Shown here: in pieces, positions 7,545 to 48,400 of the stretch | Numbering within the stretch: the stretch's first letter is position 1 | Layout: each line of letters opens with the position of its first letter | Source: Catenaria anguillulae PL171 | Lineage: Eukaryota; Blastocladiomycota; Blastocladiomycetes; Blastocladiales; Catenariaceae | Length of the DNA: 64,000 nucleotides | Direction: 5' to 3' | Assembly: GCA_002102555.1 (NCBI GenBank) | Contig: MCFL01000065.1 | Coordinates: 1-64,000 of the forward strand | Translations under genes and position numbers: made by a program | Notes under the pieces: generated by a model | The model's input: the letters and a program-made list of their open reading frames with translations, nothing else | Database searches by the model: none | What the model was told of the DNA's origin: nothing

Positions 7545-7779
7545 GGTAGGGTTGGTGTGTGGCGTTATCCGAGGTTTTTCACTAAGTGATGTGCCAGTCG
7601 TGTAGTGTAGCAGGGATGCATGGATTCATATCAGACGTAAGTACGGCCGGCCGTTGGCTCCTCCAACTCCAACGACCAACCCAACGAGGTTCGTCCTCAC
7701 GTGACCAGCACCCTGCCTGTGTCGATGGTACCGACTTGATCTAACCATAATGCCCTCATGAATGATGAATACACACAAG

Positions 7780-8895
7780 ATGCAAGCCTACGCCTCGGAA
7801 CTCGCAACCGCCCTCGCCGCCGTCCACGCCGCCTCCCTCATCACGGCCCGCGTGCAGGCCGCGCTGGTCCCGACCACCGACGCCATTGCCAAAGTCGACA
7901 AGTCGCCCGTCACCGTCGCCGATTTCGCTGCCCAGGCCGTCGTGTCCTACTATCTCGCCCAGTCGCCCGACACGCGCGCGACCTCATTGTGGGCGAAGAA
8001 GAGTCGTCTGCCCTGCGAACCGACCCGGCCCTGGCCAGCAAGGTTGTGGTGGCCATCCGCGAGGGCATGCTCCATGTGCCTGCGGCTGGGGCGGTGCAAC
8101 CCAACGAGTGGCTCGATCTGATTGATCGTGCGAGCAGCGCACGCAACCCGCCGGCATGTCGGCAAGCGGTACTGGACAGTAGATCCTGTCGATGGCACAA
8201 AGGGGTTTCTCAGGCACCAACAGTTTGCCGTATGCTTGGCGCTGCTTGAGGACAACCAGGTCAAGGTCGGCGTGCTCGGTTGCCCCAACTTGTCTTCCAA
8301 CAATACAGACAAGTCATCGCAGACGGCTGTGGGTACCACGGGGACCATGTTTTGGGCAGTCAAGGGACAGGGAGCGTGGCAAATGGATCTGTCGCATGCA
8401 CCAGACGAGTATCTCCAGCACTCGACACGCATCTCGACAACGTCGCCAACAGGTGTGGCGTCTCCCATCATGCTCGAATCGTACGAATCATCGCACTCGA
8501 ACCACGAGCTCTCGTCCTCGATTGCTGCCCATCTCAACATCACTTCGGCGCCCATGCGCATGGATTCACAATGCAAGTACGCCCAAGTCGCGCGCGGACA
8601 AGGTCACTTGTACTTGCGCATTTTGCGGGATGTCGAGTACAAGGAACGCATCTGGGATCATGCGGCTGGGTCCTTGATTGTGACCGAGGCAGGCGGAAAG
8701 GTGACGGATTTAGTGGGTGAGGAGCTCAAGTTTAAGCCAAGTGGAGCCTTGGATGAGAATGTGGGCATTGTGGCAACGGGTGGAGGCAGCGAATGGCATG
8801 ACAAGGTGCTTGAAGCCGTGCGGTTGGATCAGGGTGTGGCGCCGTATTTGCAAGTGGCCAAGAGGGTGGCGGCGGCGAGGACGAGTAAAATGTGA
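7780..8895 (+). CDS. 3'(2'),5'-bisphosphate nucleotidase (HAL2/MET22 type), two frame changes
   Basis: A lithium- and sodium-sensitive phosphatase of the inositol monophosphatase superfamily, which removes 3'-phosphoadenosine 5'-phosphate made by sulfate assimilation. Visible motifs: the metal-binding GEEES near 7993, WTVDPVDGTKGFL near 8175, GCPNL, and WDHAAGSLIVTEAGG near 8655. The N terminus reads in one frame, the GEEES segment (about 7975-8150) in another, and the rest in the first again. The break near 7970-7980 lies in a GCGCGC run; the second, near 8135-8165, needs either one extra base or two missing ones. Length without the breaks (about 370 residues) fits the family. Start at 7780 (MQAYASELATALAAV) resembles HAL2 N termini; ATGs at 7762 and 7765 are in frame. 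Confidence 0.85.
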
Positions 8896-9263: not shown

Positions 9264-10577
9264 ATGTCTCCTTCACCGCCTCCTGGCGCCACTTCGACGG
9301 CGACGGCGGTGACCCCGGTGCCCATTCCGAAGCTCGACCCGGCAGCCTACACCTCGCGCCTGACGGCGGCCTGCTCGACGTCTGCCGCGGCCCGCGACGC
9401 CCTGCGCGCCGAATACGTGCACGCCGAAAACTATGCGCGCACGCTTTTGCGCAACACCGCCACTCGGCCAAGGAAATCAAGGACCCGCACGTGCTGCTGT
9501 TGCCGCTGCACTCGCTGCCCGACGCGGCTCGCCGTGTGCCCAAACGGTTCCCTGAAGACATTGCGGCGCCCACTGTGTTTGCGACGCCCGCAGATGCCAA
9601 GCCCGCCGAGGGCGCCATTGTGCTTGCGATCGCGCCGAGTTTGCCTTGAACTGGAAACTGTTTACATCGGGCGCGCTCGATTGCCTGAATTGGGACAATG
9701 TGTTTGCTGCCGGGGCAGTGTCCAAGCGTGCTTGACGCATCTGGACCCGAGCACCAGCTATGGCGACCGGAGGGATTACTTTTTGGAAAAGCATGCCGCC
9801 GCAGATATCGACTTGTTCTTGTATGGGCTGGACGAAGAGGCCGCAAAGAAGAAGATGGAGGAGATTTACGACCAAATCACGGACGCAGTGCCCTTTGAGA
9901 TGGTGGCCATTCGGTACGTGATAGAAATCCGTCTTCGCTCTCTGGGAGAAAGTGTCGCGGTCAATCTTTTCACTCACGCAAGCATTGTCCTTTTCTTCTG
10001 CACATGTAGGACGACGCATTCGGTCTCGATCTGCGCCCAGTTTCCGTACCGCCACATTCAAATCATTCTTCGCCTTTATGCCAGTCCCGCAGAGACGCTC
10101 ATGGGCTTTGACGTGGACTCGTGCGCCGTGGCTACAAGGCAGCCAAGTCTTGCTCACGCCACGTGCCCACTTTGCTTCCTCACGCAAACCAACACGGTCG
10201 ACATGACGCGCCGCTCGCCCACATACGAATCGCGCCTGGCCAAGTATGCCAAACGCGGTTTCGAGGTGCGCGTGCCGAGTTTGCGCAGGGACGAGATTGA
10301 CCCGCAGATTTACGAGCGGTCGTTTGACAAGGTCCGTGGATTGGCCAGGCTGCTCTTGTTTGAAGCCTTGGGCGACCAGGAGGTGCGGATCGAGTACAAG
10401 GAGACGCAGAGGCAGCGCAAGGGCAGGCCGCGGCATCCGAACGCTGGCCAGTTCCAGGCCAGGCAGTACCTTCGGTCCAAGGATTTGAAGGCGCAAGAGG
10501 CCATGGAGGCCACGTCGGATTACTCGCACGTGTTTATCCCCTACGGGCCAGAGTACACGGCTGTATGTGTGCTGCCT

Positions 10578-10612
<35 letters not shown>

Positions 10613-13600
10613 CTTTGGCATTATCTGTCCGTATCAGCGCTGACGTTTATTGTGCGACGTGTACATAGTCGAGGATTGTGCGCGTGCTGTTCAAAAAGGA
10701 CAAGAACATCAACAATGAGGTCCGTCTTTTTGGCTTTTGTGAGACCGCGTCCAGCCAACTCGACAATAACACCATGTTGCCGACATACATGTAGTGGTTT
10801 ATGCGCAAACGTGGTGTGCGCGTCCACCAACACCCAGTCTTTATCGGGTCCATGACCGACATTCTCACCGACTGCTGCGGCGCGTGCCCAAAGCCCAAGT
10901 CGGACCAAGACTTTGCCGACCTGGAAAAGTTTGTGCACGGCGACATCAAGTTCATCGAGGACGATCCCGGGCGCCAGTCCATTGGCTCGTTCCATCCGCT
11001 CACGGATGACGACTGGGCGTCAGACGCGTACATTCCAGGCGACCGCGCGCCGCTGTTTGCGGCCGTTTCGCGCGGCAACTTGAGTGCCATCACGACCTAC
11101 TTGGATGCGCATCCCGCGCATGATTTGGAAGCCAGGGATTGGGTTGGACGCACCTTGTTGCACTTGGCCGTGTTGTGTGCACGCACTGACATTGTACGCG
11201 AGCTCGTCCAGCGTGGCGCGAGGGTGTCGGCGCCCATGCCCGACGGCAGGTTGCCGTTGCATTTGGCGGTCGAGTATGGCCTGCAGGACATTGCCGAGAT
11301 TGTGTGGGAAAGGCAGGTCAAGAATGCGGCCGAGGTCGAAAAGATGGAAAAGGAGGGCAAGAAGGATGCAGACGGCGATGTGCAGATGGGCGAAGTAAAA
11401 CCGAATGGCGAAAAGGATGTGACCGCAAACGTGGCAAAGACCAAGCCCACGTCGGCCTTGTACGATGATGCCGAGGCAGAAGAGCTTGAGCCAGACGTGC
11501 ATGAGATTGACCACCGCGGTACGCTCATTTCTCACCCACTTGCGCACTGTTTTCAGCCAACTGACGCGAGGTTCAATATCCAGATTGGGACTACAACATG
11601 TCGCCGCTCAGCTACGCCATCCTGTACGGCCACATTGACCTTGTTCGCTGGCTGCTCGAATGCGGAGCTGCAGCGAAGCAAATCCCCAATTCCGCGTTGC
11701 CTCGCCTGCAGATTGCCAGCACCAAGCCGCTTGCGCTCGCCATGCTTTGCCCCGACATGTCCCGCGGCATGTTGATTGCGGAGATGTTGCTCGAGCGCGG
11801 AGCCAAGGTAGACGTACAAGTGCTCAACATGGCGTTGCAGTTGGACGACAAGAGCAACGACTTCCTGACGGGCAAGTCGGTGGCAAGTTCCGGACGCGGA
11901 TCGGCATTTTCCAATACTTTCTCGAAACCGACCCGTCGATTGCCACACCAAAGTCGCTCGACGAGCTCGTTGTTCTTGCCATTAATGCCAACAACCCAAA
12001 GGCGTTGCGCGACATCTTGGCCATGGGTGGTGCGGCGCAACGGACACCCAAACGGCTCATGCAGACCGAGGGCATTTCCATGGACGATGCTGAAGGCCGC
12101 TTGCGATATGAGACGCAGCCCATATCCGTCGCGATCCCGCAGTATGGCGGGGAAATGAATCCGGAAATCGTCAAGCTGTTGCTCGAACATGGCGCGGATC
12201 CCAAGACCAAGCCAAGCTCGTGGAGCGAGACGGCCTTGATTGACATTGTGGCCGGTGCCATTCAGTCGGACATGAACACGTTTGAGCGCTACTTGCCTGC
12301 GCATGACGACACGACGGCGGCGGCCAATAAGAAGGCTAAGGACAAGGCGCTCGAGCCGTGGAACGGTCCATTGCGCACATGCGACACGTACGACGAATTT
12401 GTGCGCGCCATCAAGGCCGGCCCGTTCATTTCCAAGGATACCGCCAAGACCGACGATGCCGACCTGGTCCCTGACAAGCTGTTCAAGGACCAAATGACGC
12501 GACTTGATCTCGGCAAGGAGACGTGGCAAAAGCTCGCTGCGAAGATGGACATTTACAACATGCTCTACAAGGCCGGTGCACGCCTCATGTCGACGCCTGA
12601 CAAGACCTCGTGGTCACCCAACATGACCGAAATCCGAGTCTACGTGTCCAACGGGTGGGGTCCCGCGCTGCTCACGGCCAAGCGCCCGTCAGTCGTTGCG
12701 CACGAGCGCGCCGAGCGTGCAAACAAGGTGCTGCCGGTGGTTCAAGAAAAAGGACGAAAAGTCAGCCAAGGAGGTGTTTGACGCCTTTTCATACATGACC
12801 ACGGCCAAATCGTGGCGTGCGTCGGCCGCTGTCCAGCCAGACATGCACCAGAGTACCTCGAACTGTTCCGGCTTGTGTGGGCAGGCGACGTGCAGGCCGT
12901 CTTGAATCATGTGCGCTCGTCGCGCGTGCTCGTGACGGTGTTCAATTCGCACCGCATCACGCCCTTGGGGCTGGCCGTTTTGCGCCACAATGCCGATATG
13001 GTGGCGGCGCTGATTCAAATCGCACACGCGCAGTACAAGGAACCCGAAAAGGGCGAGTCGGTCATCAAGGCGGTCAACAACTACGACTTAGTTCGGGATA
13101 TCGGCGTTGGCAGCGACGACGACGACGACGACGACGATGAGCACGACGATGAGCACGACGATGACGACGATTATGATGAGGACGACGATGGGATGGACGA
13201 GGACAACGTGACGACGACGACGGCCATCCGCACGCGTTGGGCACCAGCAAGCAGCCTCCGCCGCCGCCGTCTCACTCGCTCACGCACGTCCGCGACTTCA
13301 TTACGCAAGAGTTCAGCATTCACGCGGGCACCGACCAGTACCCGTCTCCCGACTCTGCGGCGCCCGGGTCGCTGACTGTGGCCCACTATTGCGCGCAGGA
13401 CAACTGGCGCCTGGATTGGAGGCCATCTTTGCCGCTGTGCGTGCCATCCCGCAAGACGAGCTCAAGTACGGTTGGGAAGTCATCAAGAAGGGCGTGGGCA
13501 TCACCTTCATTCACGGCGACTTCATAAACGACCTTGTGGGCGGCCAGCTCGATCTCCATCCAACCGACAACGGCCGACTTGCACTGTCCTTCTCATCGCC

Positions 13601-15136
13601 GTTTGCAGTTGCCCTGCGGTTGGGCCATGTTGACATCATCCAGTTCTTGATGCAAGAGACGCTGGGCGGGTTCCAAATGGCCGTGTTCCATCATCTCGAT
13701 GGACGCCTCGAGGACGAGCAAGCAAAGCAGGACGTGCAGTCTGGGTATGGGGCATGAAGACGGCCGAGCGATACCTACGTGGGCGTGCGTCCAACGGGTT
13801 GCCGCCGAAAAAGAAAAAGAAGGCGGCATTCAACCCTGAGATTGACCTTTGGGGCACGTTGCTGTCGGCTCAAAGTCGACGGCAGCTATCGAGTACCTGG
13901 CGAGCCCAAAGGCCGCGGCCGACGTGGTGGCGTTTGTTGCGGCCAAGCGTGGAGCGGATCCGCGGGCTGACGAGCTTGCCGACGTGGCCGTCCGCAAGCG
14001 GTTCGTGGAAAAGGTCTTGACATTGACTGCCCATTCGCGCGGCACGAGCAAGTTGAATGTGGTGCACTATGCTGTTGGCGCTGCGTCCTCCGTTGCCGCC
14101 GAAGGATACAAAACTTTGTCAAGCACCACCTCGGCATGCTGACCAAGCTGCGCGCACTCATTCCCGCGGCCGAATTCAGCCAGCTGCTCAATGCGAAATC
14201 AGGCGCAGACAAGACCCCGCTGTACCTCGCCTGTCCCAACCAGGCATCTCACGTCGCATCATCACGACCCTTCTCGACTTTGGCGCCGACCCCACCATCC
14301 AGTGCACGTACCGTGGATGGACAGCCCTCACCACCTGTGCGCGCGGTCCACGTCGCCCGCCATGGTCAAGTACGTGCGGTCGTTCCTCGCCACTGTTCCA
14401 CGGCGCACGCGGCGCGCATTCTGTCGTCGCGCTCGACGCGCTTCAAGCACACGCCGCTGGCTGTGGCCACGCTTGCGGGCAACCACGAGGTCGTCAATAC
14501 CTTTGGGGTATCTCGGATCCAACCTGGCCAAGTTGCAGGCCGCGTACCCTGCCGGGTTTACTGGCCCAGACCCGGTTCTTCACCCGGATTTCGTCTACTC
14601 GACGCCCATCCAGCTCGCCGCCAATGCGGCCAATGTCGAGCTGCTGCGTGTGCTCCGGGAGGCACAGCCCCAGGCATCGTGGTGGCACGCGGAAAATGCC
14701 GATGGCGCCACGCTCGCGGGCAGGGCCGTGCAGGCGTTCCGGTACGCCGTGCACACGGGCCAGGGGTTGGTGGGCCAGGTGGTTGTGCCCGATGCCAACG
14801 GGGTGGGTGGCGGCATTATGTGGAAGAGGAGGTGGCAGTCAAGGACTTGGCCGATGTACAAGCTTCGGGTGACGTGACTGACGAGGAGGAGGAGGACCAG
14901 GCACAAGCCGCAATACGGACGACAACAAGGACACCCCGAAAAAGGTCAAGGTGCTCAAGTCGCGTGCCGCGCCCGTGTCGCTGCTCGCCTATGTGCACGA
15001 GCTGGGCTTGTTGGATCGCGAGCACCTGGGCAAGCGCGTGTTGGTGCCTCAAGCTAAAGTGGTAGAGGCCGTCGCGAGCGTGTCAGAGGCGCTCAAGGAG
15101 GAGGGGCCAGTTGGTCTCAAAAGCAAGAGCTCATGA
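9264..15136 (+). CDS. Giant ankyrin-repeat protein with nucleotidyltransferase-like N-terminal domain; many frame breaks
   Basis: One long gene, probably about 1,900 residues. After a Pro-rich start comes a domain with LNWDNVFAAG, a GGSV-like turn near 9710, then DIDLFLYGLDEE near 9805 and MGFDVDSC near 10100. These resemble the G[GS]...DxD and later acidic motifs of pol beta-type nucleotidyltransferases, although that assignment is inference. Next comes a conserved block (TQTNTVDMTRRSPTYE, LAKYAKRGFEVRVP), then ankyrin repeats (for example GRTLLHLAVLCARTDIVREL, PLSYAILYGHIDLVRWLLE, IVKLLLEHGADP, TPLYLACP). An Asp/His-rich acidic tract lies near 13115-13200. Introns I can place: about 9914-10009, 10563-10668, 10715-10788 and 11519-11583. 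At least a dozen frame changes remain, too many for introns; either assembly indels or a decaying gene. Function unknown. Confidence 0.7.
10577..10612 (+). repeat. TTTC tetranucleotide microsatellite in an intron
   Basis: About nine copies of TTCT/TTTC sit inside the second intron of the ankyrin gene, where they may serve as the pyrimidine tract. Such arrays vary in length between strains. Confidence 0.85.
13114..13203 (+). repeat. GAC/GAT triplet repeat coding an acidic tract
   Basis: Imperfect GAC, GAT and CAC triplets within the ankyrin gene encode a run of Asp with interspersed Glu and His. One edge begins with eight near-perfect GAC units, the rest is degenerate. Confidence 0.75.
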
Positions 15137-45483: not shown

Positions 45484-48400
45484 ATGCCCGTTCCAGCAAA
45501 TGACTATCACCCGCATGCACTGCCGCCAACCCGCCCTTTGGACCCTGCCGCTGCCGCCGCGGCTGCTGCGGCCGTTGCTGCTGCGGCTGCCGCCAATCAA
45601 GCCGCTGCCTCCTCCCACGCCCGCCGCACGGGCTCGGACCTGATTCCCGCTTCCGTTCGCCTCGACTTGGAGCCCTACGGTTTGGCTTGGTTGCCGCCTG
45701 CATCGGCTAGTACACCTGTCACTGCGCCATTGCTACTGTCGGACGACAGCATTCACATGGATGCAACATCAGCCCTCGCGTGTCCGTTTCCGCCGCTGGC
45801 GGTCCTGTTGATTCAGACGCTATGGACACACGATCTGGGCATGGCGCCAACATGGACATGCTCGACGAGGGACATGTCCGTGAGTATGACGAGCTCATGG
45901 GAATCGACTGCGACGGATTGCCCCTGCCCCTGCCGTTACCGCCAACGTCCTTCTCCATTTGCTCTTTGTCGGCCGCAGCCATCAAGTCAGAAAAGGTGCT
46001 CAATCATCTCGCGTCGCTCCGAATTGAAGCATCCGCAGATACGGCGCTCGGGCCTGTTGCTCCAGAATCCACCAACATGCAACCGCCTCTCGCCTACTCC
46101 CATACTTGCCACCACCTGTCCAACTCGCCGCCCTGCCCCCATGTTCCTCACCCCTTGTCGACCCACTGGCTGACCCTGTCTGGTCTGGCCGCTGGGCAAC
46201 CGCACACGTCTCGATCATGGTCCCCGCCGTGGCACAGAAATCGTATGGATCTGAAAAGCGGTACATTAGCCCGCCGCCGCAGATTGAGTTGGTTGGATGC
46301 CCCTGGTTCCCGACAGCGCATGCCAGCATGCCGGGACATGTGTGACCGAGTGGCCCTTGCCTGCGATCGAGCCGGGCGATTTGCCGCAGGTGCAGTTGCG
46401 ACTTGTTGAAGATGAAACGGCAGGTGCGCCATCGGCGGTAACGCCGGTCCCACAAGACACGGCATCATCGTCCACAAGCGCAACGCCAGGGGTCGTTCTT
46501 GTTGATGGAATTGTCACAGATCATGCAAGCACTGGACCCGTGGACGAGGCACCCAGGGGTGAAGTCGTTCATGCCGCACACGCTGCGTGGATGACCCCAC
46601 GTCCTCCGGATCTGGAAGCATCTGCGGCGGCAGCATCCTCACATACATCATCGTTCGATTCCAGCTCGGCCACCAACCGTCGCGGCCGTCGAAGCGCACC
46701 CAAGCCCGATCCAACCGATGAAGACTCTGCTCCTCCACCAGCAAAGCAACGTCGCACGTCAGCCGCCTCGTCCATTGCCTCGTCCTCGACCCGCGTCTCT
46801 AATGCCTCCACCACTCCCCACGGAATCCAGCTGTCGACGTCGCCCAATCAACAGTTTGACACGTACCGCGTGGAATCCCTCGTGCCCTCAACCCCGTTTT
46901 GCCCCACGCTCCCACACGCCCTCTACACGTCACGCAACGTGCACGTTGCCGACTCGGAAAAGAAATCGAGCTTCTCTGTCGCCTTTCGCATCCATCCCCC
47001 TGCACCGTTGCTCCCGCAAGGCGCGCATCGCACTACGCCCCCGACATGGGCCGCCCTCACTTCGCCCGTTGTGCGCGTGATTGCCAAACCAAACAAGCGC
47101 AAGCCGAGTCTGGCCGGAGCACCCCCTGGGTTTCCAAGCTTGTACGCCATCATGGGCGGATCCACTGTGTCGCTGTTTATGCGCATTCGCGCACAAAGCG
47201 TGGCCACGCGCTACTTGTGCGTTGGCGCCAGCCCACGTGTGCCTGCGGGCGACGTGGCCAGGGTGCAGCAGATGATTACGGAAACAACGGGCGGTGCGCC
47301 GGTTGCGGTGGCAAGAATGGAAGATGCAGCGCGTCATGTGGTTGCGATGGCCGAGGCGCCCAGGGTACCGGACGGGTGGGGCGGGATGGGCGCAGCGGCC
47401 AATGGCGGCGAAAACAGGTTTGTGATGGATGCGAGCAAAGTGGCTGCGAATCACGAGGCGGTCAAGTACCTGTTTCCGCAGGCGACGCAGCCGCAGCACG
47501 TCGAGTTTTTGGCCAGCCACACGGCTTGGAGCAGTATTCGCATGGACATTGTGGACGAGTACGAGCGAGGAACCGGTGTGCTGCACACGTCGGCAAGTGA
47601 CACATGCAAGTGCGACGTGCGGCCGCACGTGCCGTTGAACTACGGCATGACGGTCGTGCTCGTGTGCCCGGTGACGGGGCTCCGGTCGAGGGAGCTACTT
47701 GTGCGGCGCGTGGATCGGGGCTCGTTGGCGGTCTTGGCCGAGGGCATGTTGATGCCCGAGTCACTCGAGGGCGAGGAGGAGGACGTCAAGGCAGTGTACG
47801 AAGAAGCCGTCAAGTGTGTGCCGCCGCCGCCCGTCCCGGCATCAACCAGGAGGAGGCAGCAGCAGCAGCAGCAGCAGCAGCAGGCGTCGGCAGCCGCGGG
47901 CAGCAACACGTCCACTTCTTCGGTTGGGTCCCATAACTCGGCCTCTTCGGCAGCGTCAAGCAATTCGGCAACGAGCGAGCCGACTGCAAAGACCAAGAAA
48001 CCCAGGGCCAATCTGGATTCCGTTTCGGTCATGTTCGGGACTAGGGTCAAGTCTGCAAAATTGCACGCCCTGGCCAACAACCCATACGAAGTGCACATTG
48101 CGCAAGCACACACGACCACGCCGACATCGTCACGCGACCCGCTGTTGCCCAAATCCGACCATGTATCGCAGCTGCACAAGATTGCACTGCAAGTCAAGAC
48201 CCAGCCCGGCGACGAGCGTGAGGGCACGTTGGGAGGTTATCCAGGCGCATTCCTTGCACTGGTTGACTCGAGCATTGGGCTGTATTACCCAAAGCCCGCC
48301 AACGTGTCGTTTACTCCGTTTGACTTGTCTGGCGACGCAATGTACACGCGCGGCGATCTCAAGGCTATGCTTGCGCTTGCCGTCGACAATCCGCTCGTGT

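Follow-up and report, generated by a model that had tools for sequence, protein, structure and literature searches.

An ankyrin-fused nucleotidyltransferase-like gene of Catenaria anguillulae, its relatives in eukaryotes and phages and its fold matches in giant viruses

Some animal cGAS-like receptors are reported to join a nucleotidyltransferase to ankyrin repeats (PMC9980059). Jumbo phages are reported to restore RNA ends with nucleotidyltransferases; that text does not name the family treated here (PMC7824862). We describe a gene of Catenaria anguillulae PL171 (Blastocladiomycota), located at positions 9264 to 15136 of a 64,000-nucleotide stretch of contig MCFL01000065.1 (the window), in which a nucleotidyltransferase-like domain is followed by a linker region and an ankyrin array. 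The original prediction made from this DNA held that no characterised protein has such a layout. The layout is not unknown: the cGAS-like receptors are an independent example of it, and the Catenaria gene belongs to a large family, widespread in eukaryotes, which has the Pfam number PF26128. Our preferred explanation, to which we give a probability of about 0.5, is that the protein is a pol-beta-type enzyme, recruited by its ankyrins, that would add nucleotides to RNA 3′ ends without a template. The gene and the features of its N-terminal domain are as follows.

9264..15136, + strand: whole gene, from the nucleotidyltransferase domain through the linker region to the ankyrin array; introns and short frame changes interrupt the reading
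9264..10259, + strand: N-terminal region with the nucleotidyltransferase-like domain, from homologue alignment and the fold of relatives
9714..9722, + strand: GSV of the GG[SA]V turn, from translation and column counts
9804..9812, + strand: DID, the DxD pair, at the start of DIDLFLYGLDEE, from translation and column counts, in the same frame as GSV
10110..10118, + strand: DVD of GFDVDSC (FDxD), from column counts
10209..10259, + strand: RRSPTYESRLAKYAKRG block, holding the RxxKxxxRG common with phage proteins, from column and phage comparison

The turn, the DxD pair and GFDVDSC had been predicted in this order, and they were found at 9714–9722, 9804 and about 10104–10124, the last after an intron. 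The second G of the turn is readable only across a frame change. A second conserved block had also been expected and is present as TNTVDMTRRSPTYE...KYAKRG, ending at 10259. A G[GS] turn followed by DxD is a feature of the pol-beta nucleotidyltransferase superfamily, and the domain has it.

Conservation was counted in 246 domain copies from 240 listed proteins, a copy being counted only where it has a letter in the column. The 240 are the best-scoring matches, which biases the counts toward conservation; identity to the query still goes down to 36% in the first list. The first G of the turn is kept in 220/221 copies, and the DxD pair in 228/231 for the first D and 230/230 for the second. A Gln after the strands and both R of RRS are each kept in 241/241. 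FDxD retains its first D in 241/241 copies and its second in 240/241, and the R, K and R of the RxxKxxxRG block are found in 241/241, 241/242 and 242/242, respectively. The Asp residues thus do not vary freely, the departures being limited to four rows (P0146, P0148, P0233 and P0240). Because DxD, FDxD and RxxKxxxRG are nearly invariant in the homologues, the domain is quite likely to be catalytically active. The third acidic residue had been sought in MGFDVDSC. FDxD is nearly invariant, and within it the first D is the better candidate since the phage relatives keep it; this residue would share the metal site with DxD.

The fold was compared using the predicted domain of a standalone relative, P0123 (pLDDT 87), as the query in place of the Catenaria protein itself. 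In each of two comparisons the best 50 PDB matches were nucleotidyltransferases only, with modest scores; some of these entries have unspecific titles, and we take them to be nucleotidyltransferases. CCA-adding enzymes and poly(A) polymerases ranked first and FAM46/TENT5 next, with CD-NTases and NF45/NF90 also among the matches. The head of class II CCA-adding enzymes and bacterial poly(A) polymerases (PF01743), which gave the best matches, shares with the domain a GG turn followed by DxD; PF01743 was not matched in eight domains scanned up to E 1. FAM46/TENT5 matched at an rmsd of about 5.5 and likewise had no Pfam match. Judged by the modelled relative, the N-terminal domain almost certainly has the pol-beta-superfamily nucleotidyltransferase fold, so that the predicted nucleotidyltransferase-like character is supported as to fold and, less firmly, as to activity.

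Several candidate likenesses were set aside. One motif of the class II enzymes is named RRD; its equation with FDxD looks good by eye, had no support from profile comparison and was not used as evidence. A fold search with the fused model listed ankyrin-bearing chains, RNase L at the top, which was taken as generic ankyrin similarity, and a PDB profile search with the domain gave a single row, taken as chance. Weak matches to DUF7421 (on the DIDLF piece, E 0.021, under its cut-off), Nas2_N, MC7, TrbF of NCBIfam (one of eight domains, E 0.0041) and four further PHROGs (one or two of eight domains each) were dropped.

A search with the N-terminal region returned 419 proteins at E≤1e-3, far beyond chance. 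Among the matches listed are those of chytrids, Syncephalis, Glomeromycotina, ascomycetes, basidiomycetes, Planoprotostelium, Blastocystis, Anaeramoeba and the green alga Bryopsis. Ankyrin domains occur in nearly all of the best 120, which were listed. The label PF26128 is precomputed on P0001, the deposited protein of the Catenaria gene, and was seen by eye on the listed homologues. A second search with eight trimmed domains returned 520 proteins (best 120 listed); for many of the listed ones no ankyrin domain is given, and some of those entries are partial or metagenomic models. BRCT is present in 4 of the 120 homologues of the first list (P0026, at the C-terminus, P0036, P0038 and P0108), a possible pointer to DNA damage or the nucleus. 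Three proteins of the mushroom Gymnopilus dilepis (P0023, P0205 and P0220) have the domain without listed ankyrins; in P0023, WD40 and two copies of the domain stand in their place. Members among the matches listed are mostly recorded as 'ankyrin repeat protein', 'ankyrin' or 'hypothetical protein'. A literature search for the number PF26128 found nothing, and no characterised member or description of the family was found in the literature searched, outside which most subscription papers lie. A probable enzyme family, common in fungi and present in several other eukaryotic lineages, would be hidden under ankyrin or hypothetical names. No relative turned up when bacterial and archaeal genomes were scanned with two patterns, which is weak evidence of absence.

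Relatives exist in phages. A DNA pattern scan gave 14 loci, of which one, L024, encodes a protein on a phage-like contig that was taken as a real relative by its motif order. Its database record, P0241, also bears the precomputed label PF26128, and a protein search with its frame returned only that record. Sulfitobacter phage NYA-2014a was reached through L024, and its protein is a member of phrog_4400 (E 6.7e-80). Altogether 67 phage records were found, and in 26 of them the place covers at least 80% of the protein. Some depositors named these proteins tRNA nucleotidyltransferase or poly(A) polymerase I; PHROGs lists them as of unknown function. A locus with a higher profile score than L024, L017, was rejected as a repetitive DLFI protein (many repeated 'DLFI-G' units in a viral-contig frame of 1,399 aa), and the other 12 were taken as chance.

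An hhalign comparison of the eight eukaryotic domains with 11 phage and phage-like proteins gave a probability of 96.7% and E 3.4e-10 over 195 columns. The phrog_4400 model alone matched all eight domains weakly (best E 0.019). Letters agreeing in the joint alignment, in at least 7 of 8 eukaryotic and at least 9 of 11 phage sequences, are GG, Q, P, E, the first D of FDxD, R, K, R, G and one later G; that first D is present in 11/11 phage proteins. The phage proteins have D-x-D after GG by eye, unaligned with the eukaryotic DxD in the joint run. The phrog_4400 proteins thus carry GG, Q, PxE, FD and RxxKxxxRG in the same order as the eukaryotic domain. They differ in being mostly about 300–370 residues long, without ankyrins, of low identity and with long insertions. 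tRNA genes lie near the domain relative in 2 of 12 phage loci (L024, 1–3605; L038, 1–411); the other flanks are short.

Other routes to viral relatives gave less. Scans of viral contigs with back-translated patterns yielded no confirmed relative, and P0123 had no tblastn match among phage records, though the phage family exists. The phrog_4400 profile had no match in the Catenaria genome nor in any control and is hence uninformative there. Five partial places were found in five phage genomes that we took for possible carriers of phrog_1614; the three that were translated look CCA-like. The domain had no profile match to three CCA-like phage proteins. Predicted viral structures gave 86 fold matches at E≤0.001. 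The best was the Fadolivirus ankyrin protein A0A7D3QUG1 (E 1.3e-39, 29% identity, TM 0.79 by query), and proteins of Bodo saltans virus and then Pithovirus came next. The ankyrin proteins of Fadolivirus, Pithovirus LCPAC102 and Megavirus baoshan match the domain in fold, the comparison being one of predicted structures.

A wider proposal, which we hold to be doubtful, starts from an ancient nucleotidyltransferase family that phages, giant viruses and eukaryotes would have in common. Fused to ankyrins at an early stage of eukaryotic evolution, it would serve as a sensor-effector that responds to RNA ends or to infection. If so, the ankyrin array would sense a partner and the enzyme would tag RNA or make a nucleotide signal, and a widespread eukaryotic system would have been overlooked under the mere annotation of ankyrin repeat protein.

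Homology, the fold class found in relatives, the conserved residues and the domain layout are shown; that the domain is active, how it binds metal, what it acts on and what its ankyrins do are inferred. In the explanation that we prefer, a protein of roughly 1,800 residues would carry a catalytically competent N-terminal domain. DxD together with the first D of FDxD would coordinate two metal ions, the triphosphate would rest in the GG turn, and RxxKxxxRG may sit by the nucleotide or the acceptor. Through its ankyrin array the enzyme would bind a partner and so reach its target, where nucleotides would be added to an RNA 3′ end independently of a template. RNA 3′ ends are the leading guess, on thin evidence, because of the nearest folds, the names given to the phage proteins and the tRNA genes at two phage loci; given activity, such a substrate has even or slightly better odds. 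Routine CCA addition is an unlikely role since Catenaria has a separate canonical CCA-type gene with a PF01743 head domain, found at two places with equal scores. These two places (L040 and L041, on contigs C214 and C429) are perhaps two haplotypes or a recent copy. If the protein does act on RNA ends, it would represent a new branch of eukaryotic terminal nucleotidyltransferases. Given the strongly conserved active-site-type residues and the link to phages and giant viruses, its activity could be tested directly on a domain of about 340–500 residues.

The fusion to ankyrins, which are protein-binding repeats, in most listed homologues, and to BRCT or WD40 in a few, would also suit an enzyme that modifies array-bound proteins with AMP, UMP or another nucleotide. 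The nearest solved folds, however, act on RNA, and numerous short proteins have the domain but no listed ankyrins, some of them being partial models; we regard a protein target as unlikely. Somewhat less likely again is a cGAS-like sensor whose product is a nucleotide second messenger and whose ankyrins serve for sensing or docking. Ankyrin-fused cGAS-like receptors do exist in animals (PMC9980059). The presence of CD-NTases among the fold matches also agrees with such a sensor. A catalytically dead scaffold with the nucleotidyltransferase fold is improbable: dead members of the superfamily are known, NF45/NF90 being among the fold matches, and the four departing rows show that a single D can be lost, but almost all copies retain both DxD and FDxD, which is unexpected without catalysis.

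The reading of the gene in Catenaria itself depends on its structure. The genome assembly comprises 41 Mb in 457 contigs and yielded a single copy of the domain, the one on the window contig. The same stretch encodes the deposited protein P0001 (850 aa). The remaining features are given below.

9914..10009, + strand: intron 1, 96 bp, GT...AG ends, with a matching junction in P0001
10563..10668, + strand: intron 2, 106 bp, GT...AG ends, containing a short TTTC repeat
10720..10794, + strand: intron 3, 75 bp, GT...AG ends
10795..11518, + strand: conserved HxHP...DCCG...DPGRQ-IGSF linker region, then the first ankyrin repeats, from Pfam and homologue comparison
11519..11583, + strand: intron 4, 65 bp, GT...AG ends
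11584..14823, + strand: rest of the ankyrin array, clear by Pfam in its first part only, the remainder by collinearity with relatives
13115..13207 (about), + strand: acidic insert, from translation

The disruptions of the frame had been put down to indels. This is right in part: four of them are GT...AG introns, which the junctions of P0001 match, and the rest are frame changes too small for introns, six of them in 9264–10559. The TTTC-type repeat of intron 2 lies at 10574–10612. Blastocladiella protein P0004 (residues 13–1698 of 1850) and Allomyces protein P0003 (residues 2–1727 of 1860) are collinear with the gene in frame-switching pieces, and the relatives possess intact copies. Because P0004 and P0003 align in order and a neighbouring nucleotidase gene looks similarly broken, the short frame changes are most likely assembly errors. 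The deposited model of 850 aa would then be truncated and in part read in the wrong frame, its relatives being about 1,850 aa. Decay into a pseudogene in Catenaria, regardless of the relatives, is as improbable as the dead scaffold: six short frame changes stand against the long open frames of other window genes with Pfam domains (350, 827 and 1,334 aa), but there are 0 stops across the 1,788 codons of the read-through segments (a weak test, the segments having been selected as open), similarity to relatives runs along the gene, the adjacent gene looks broken too and no second copy of the domain was found in the genome.

The predicted ankyrin array with an acidic insert is present. Pfam Ank matched 10795–11517 at E 3.1e-11 (43.3 bits against a curated cut-off of 21.1) and Ank_3 matched 11595–11870 at E 3.8e-8; later pieces have weak Pfam scores or none. 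P0003 and P0004 also have acidic stretches. The HxHP...DCC block upstream is less complete among the homologues, many copies stopping before it. The HxHP...DCCGxCP stretch (10795–10990 and relatives), just upstream of the ankyrins, resembles a possible metal-binding Cys/His cluster.

The gene is flanked by a bisphosphate-nucleotidase-like gene on one side and a gene of the squalene/phytoene-synthase family on the other. The former, HAL2/SAL1-like, lies at window 7758–8895; both its ends match in the same frame, and its middle piece, read in another frame, has no match, as though short frame changes interrupted this gene too. Elsewhere in the window, the 1,334-aa frame at 46297–50301 matches a beta-trefoil DNA-binding domain above the cut-off and, weakly, LAG1-DNAbind and TIG_SUH, and probably encodes a CSL-type transcription factor of a blastocladiomycete.
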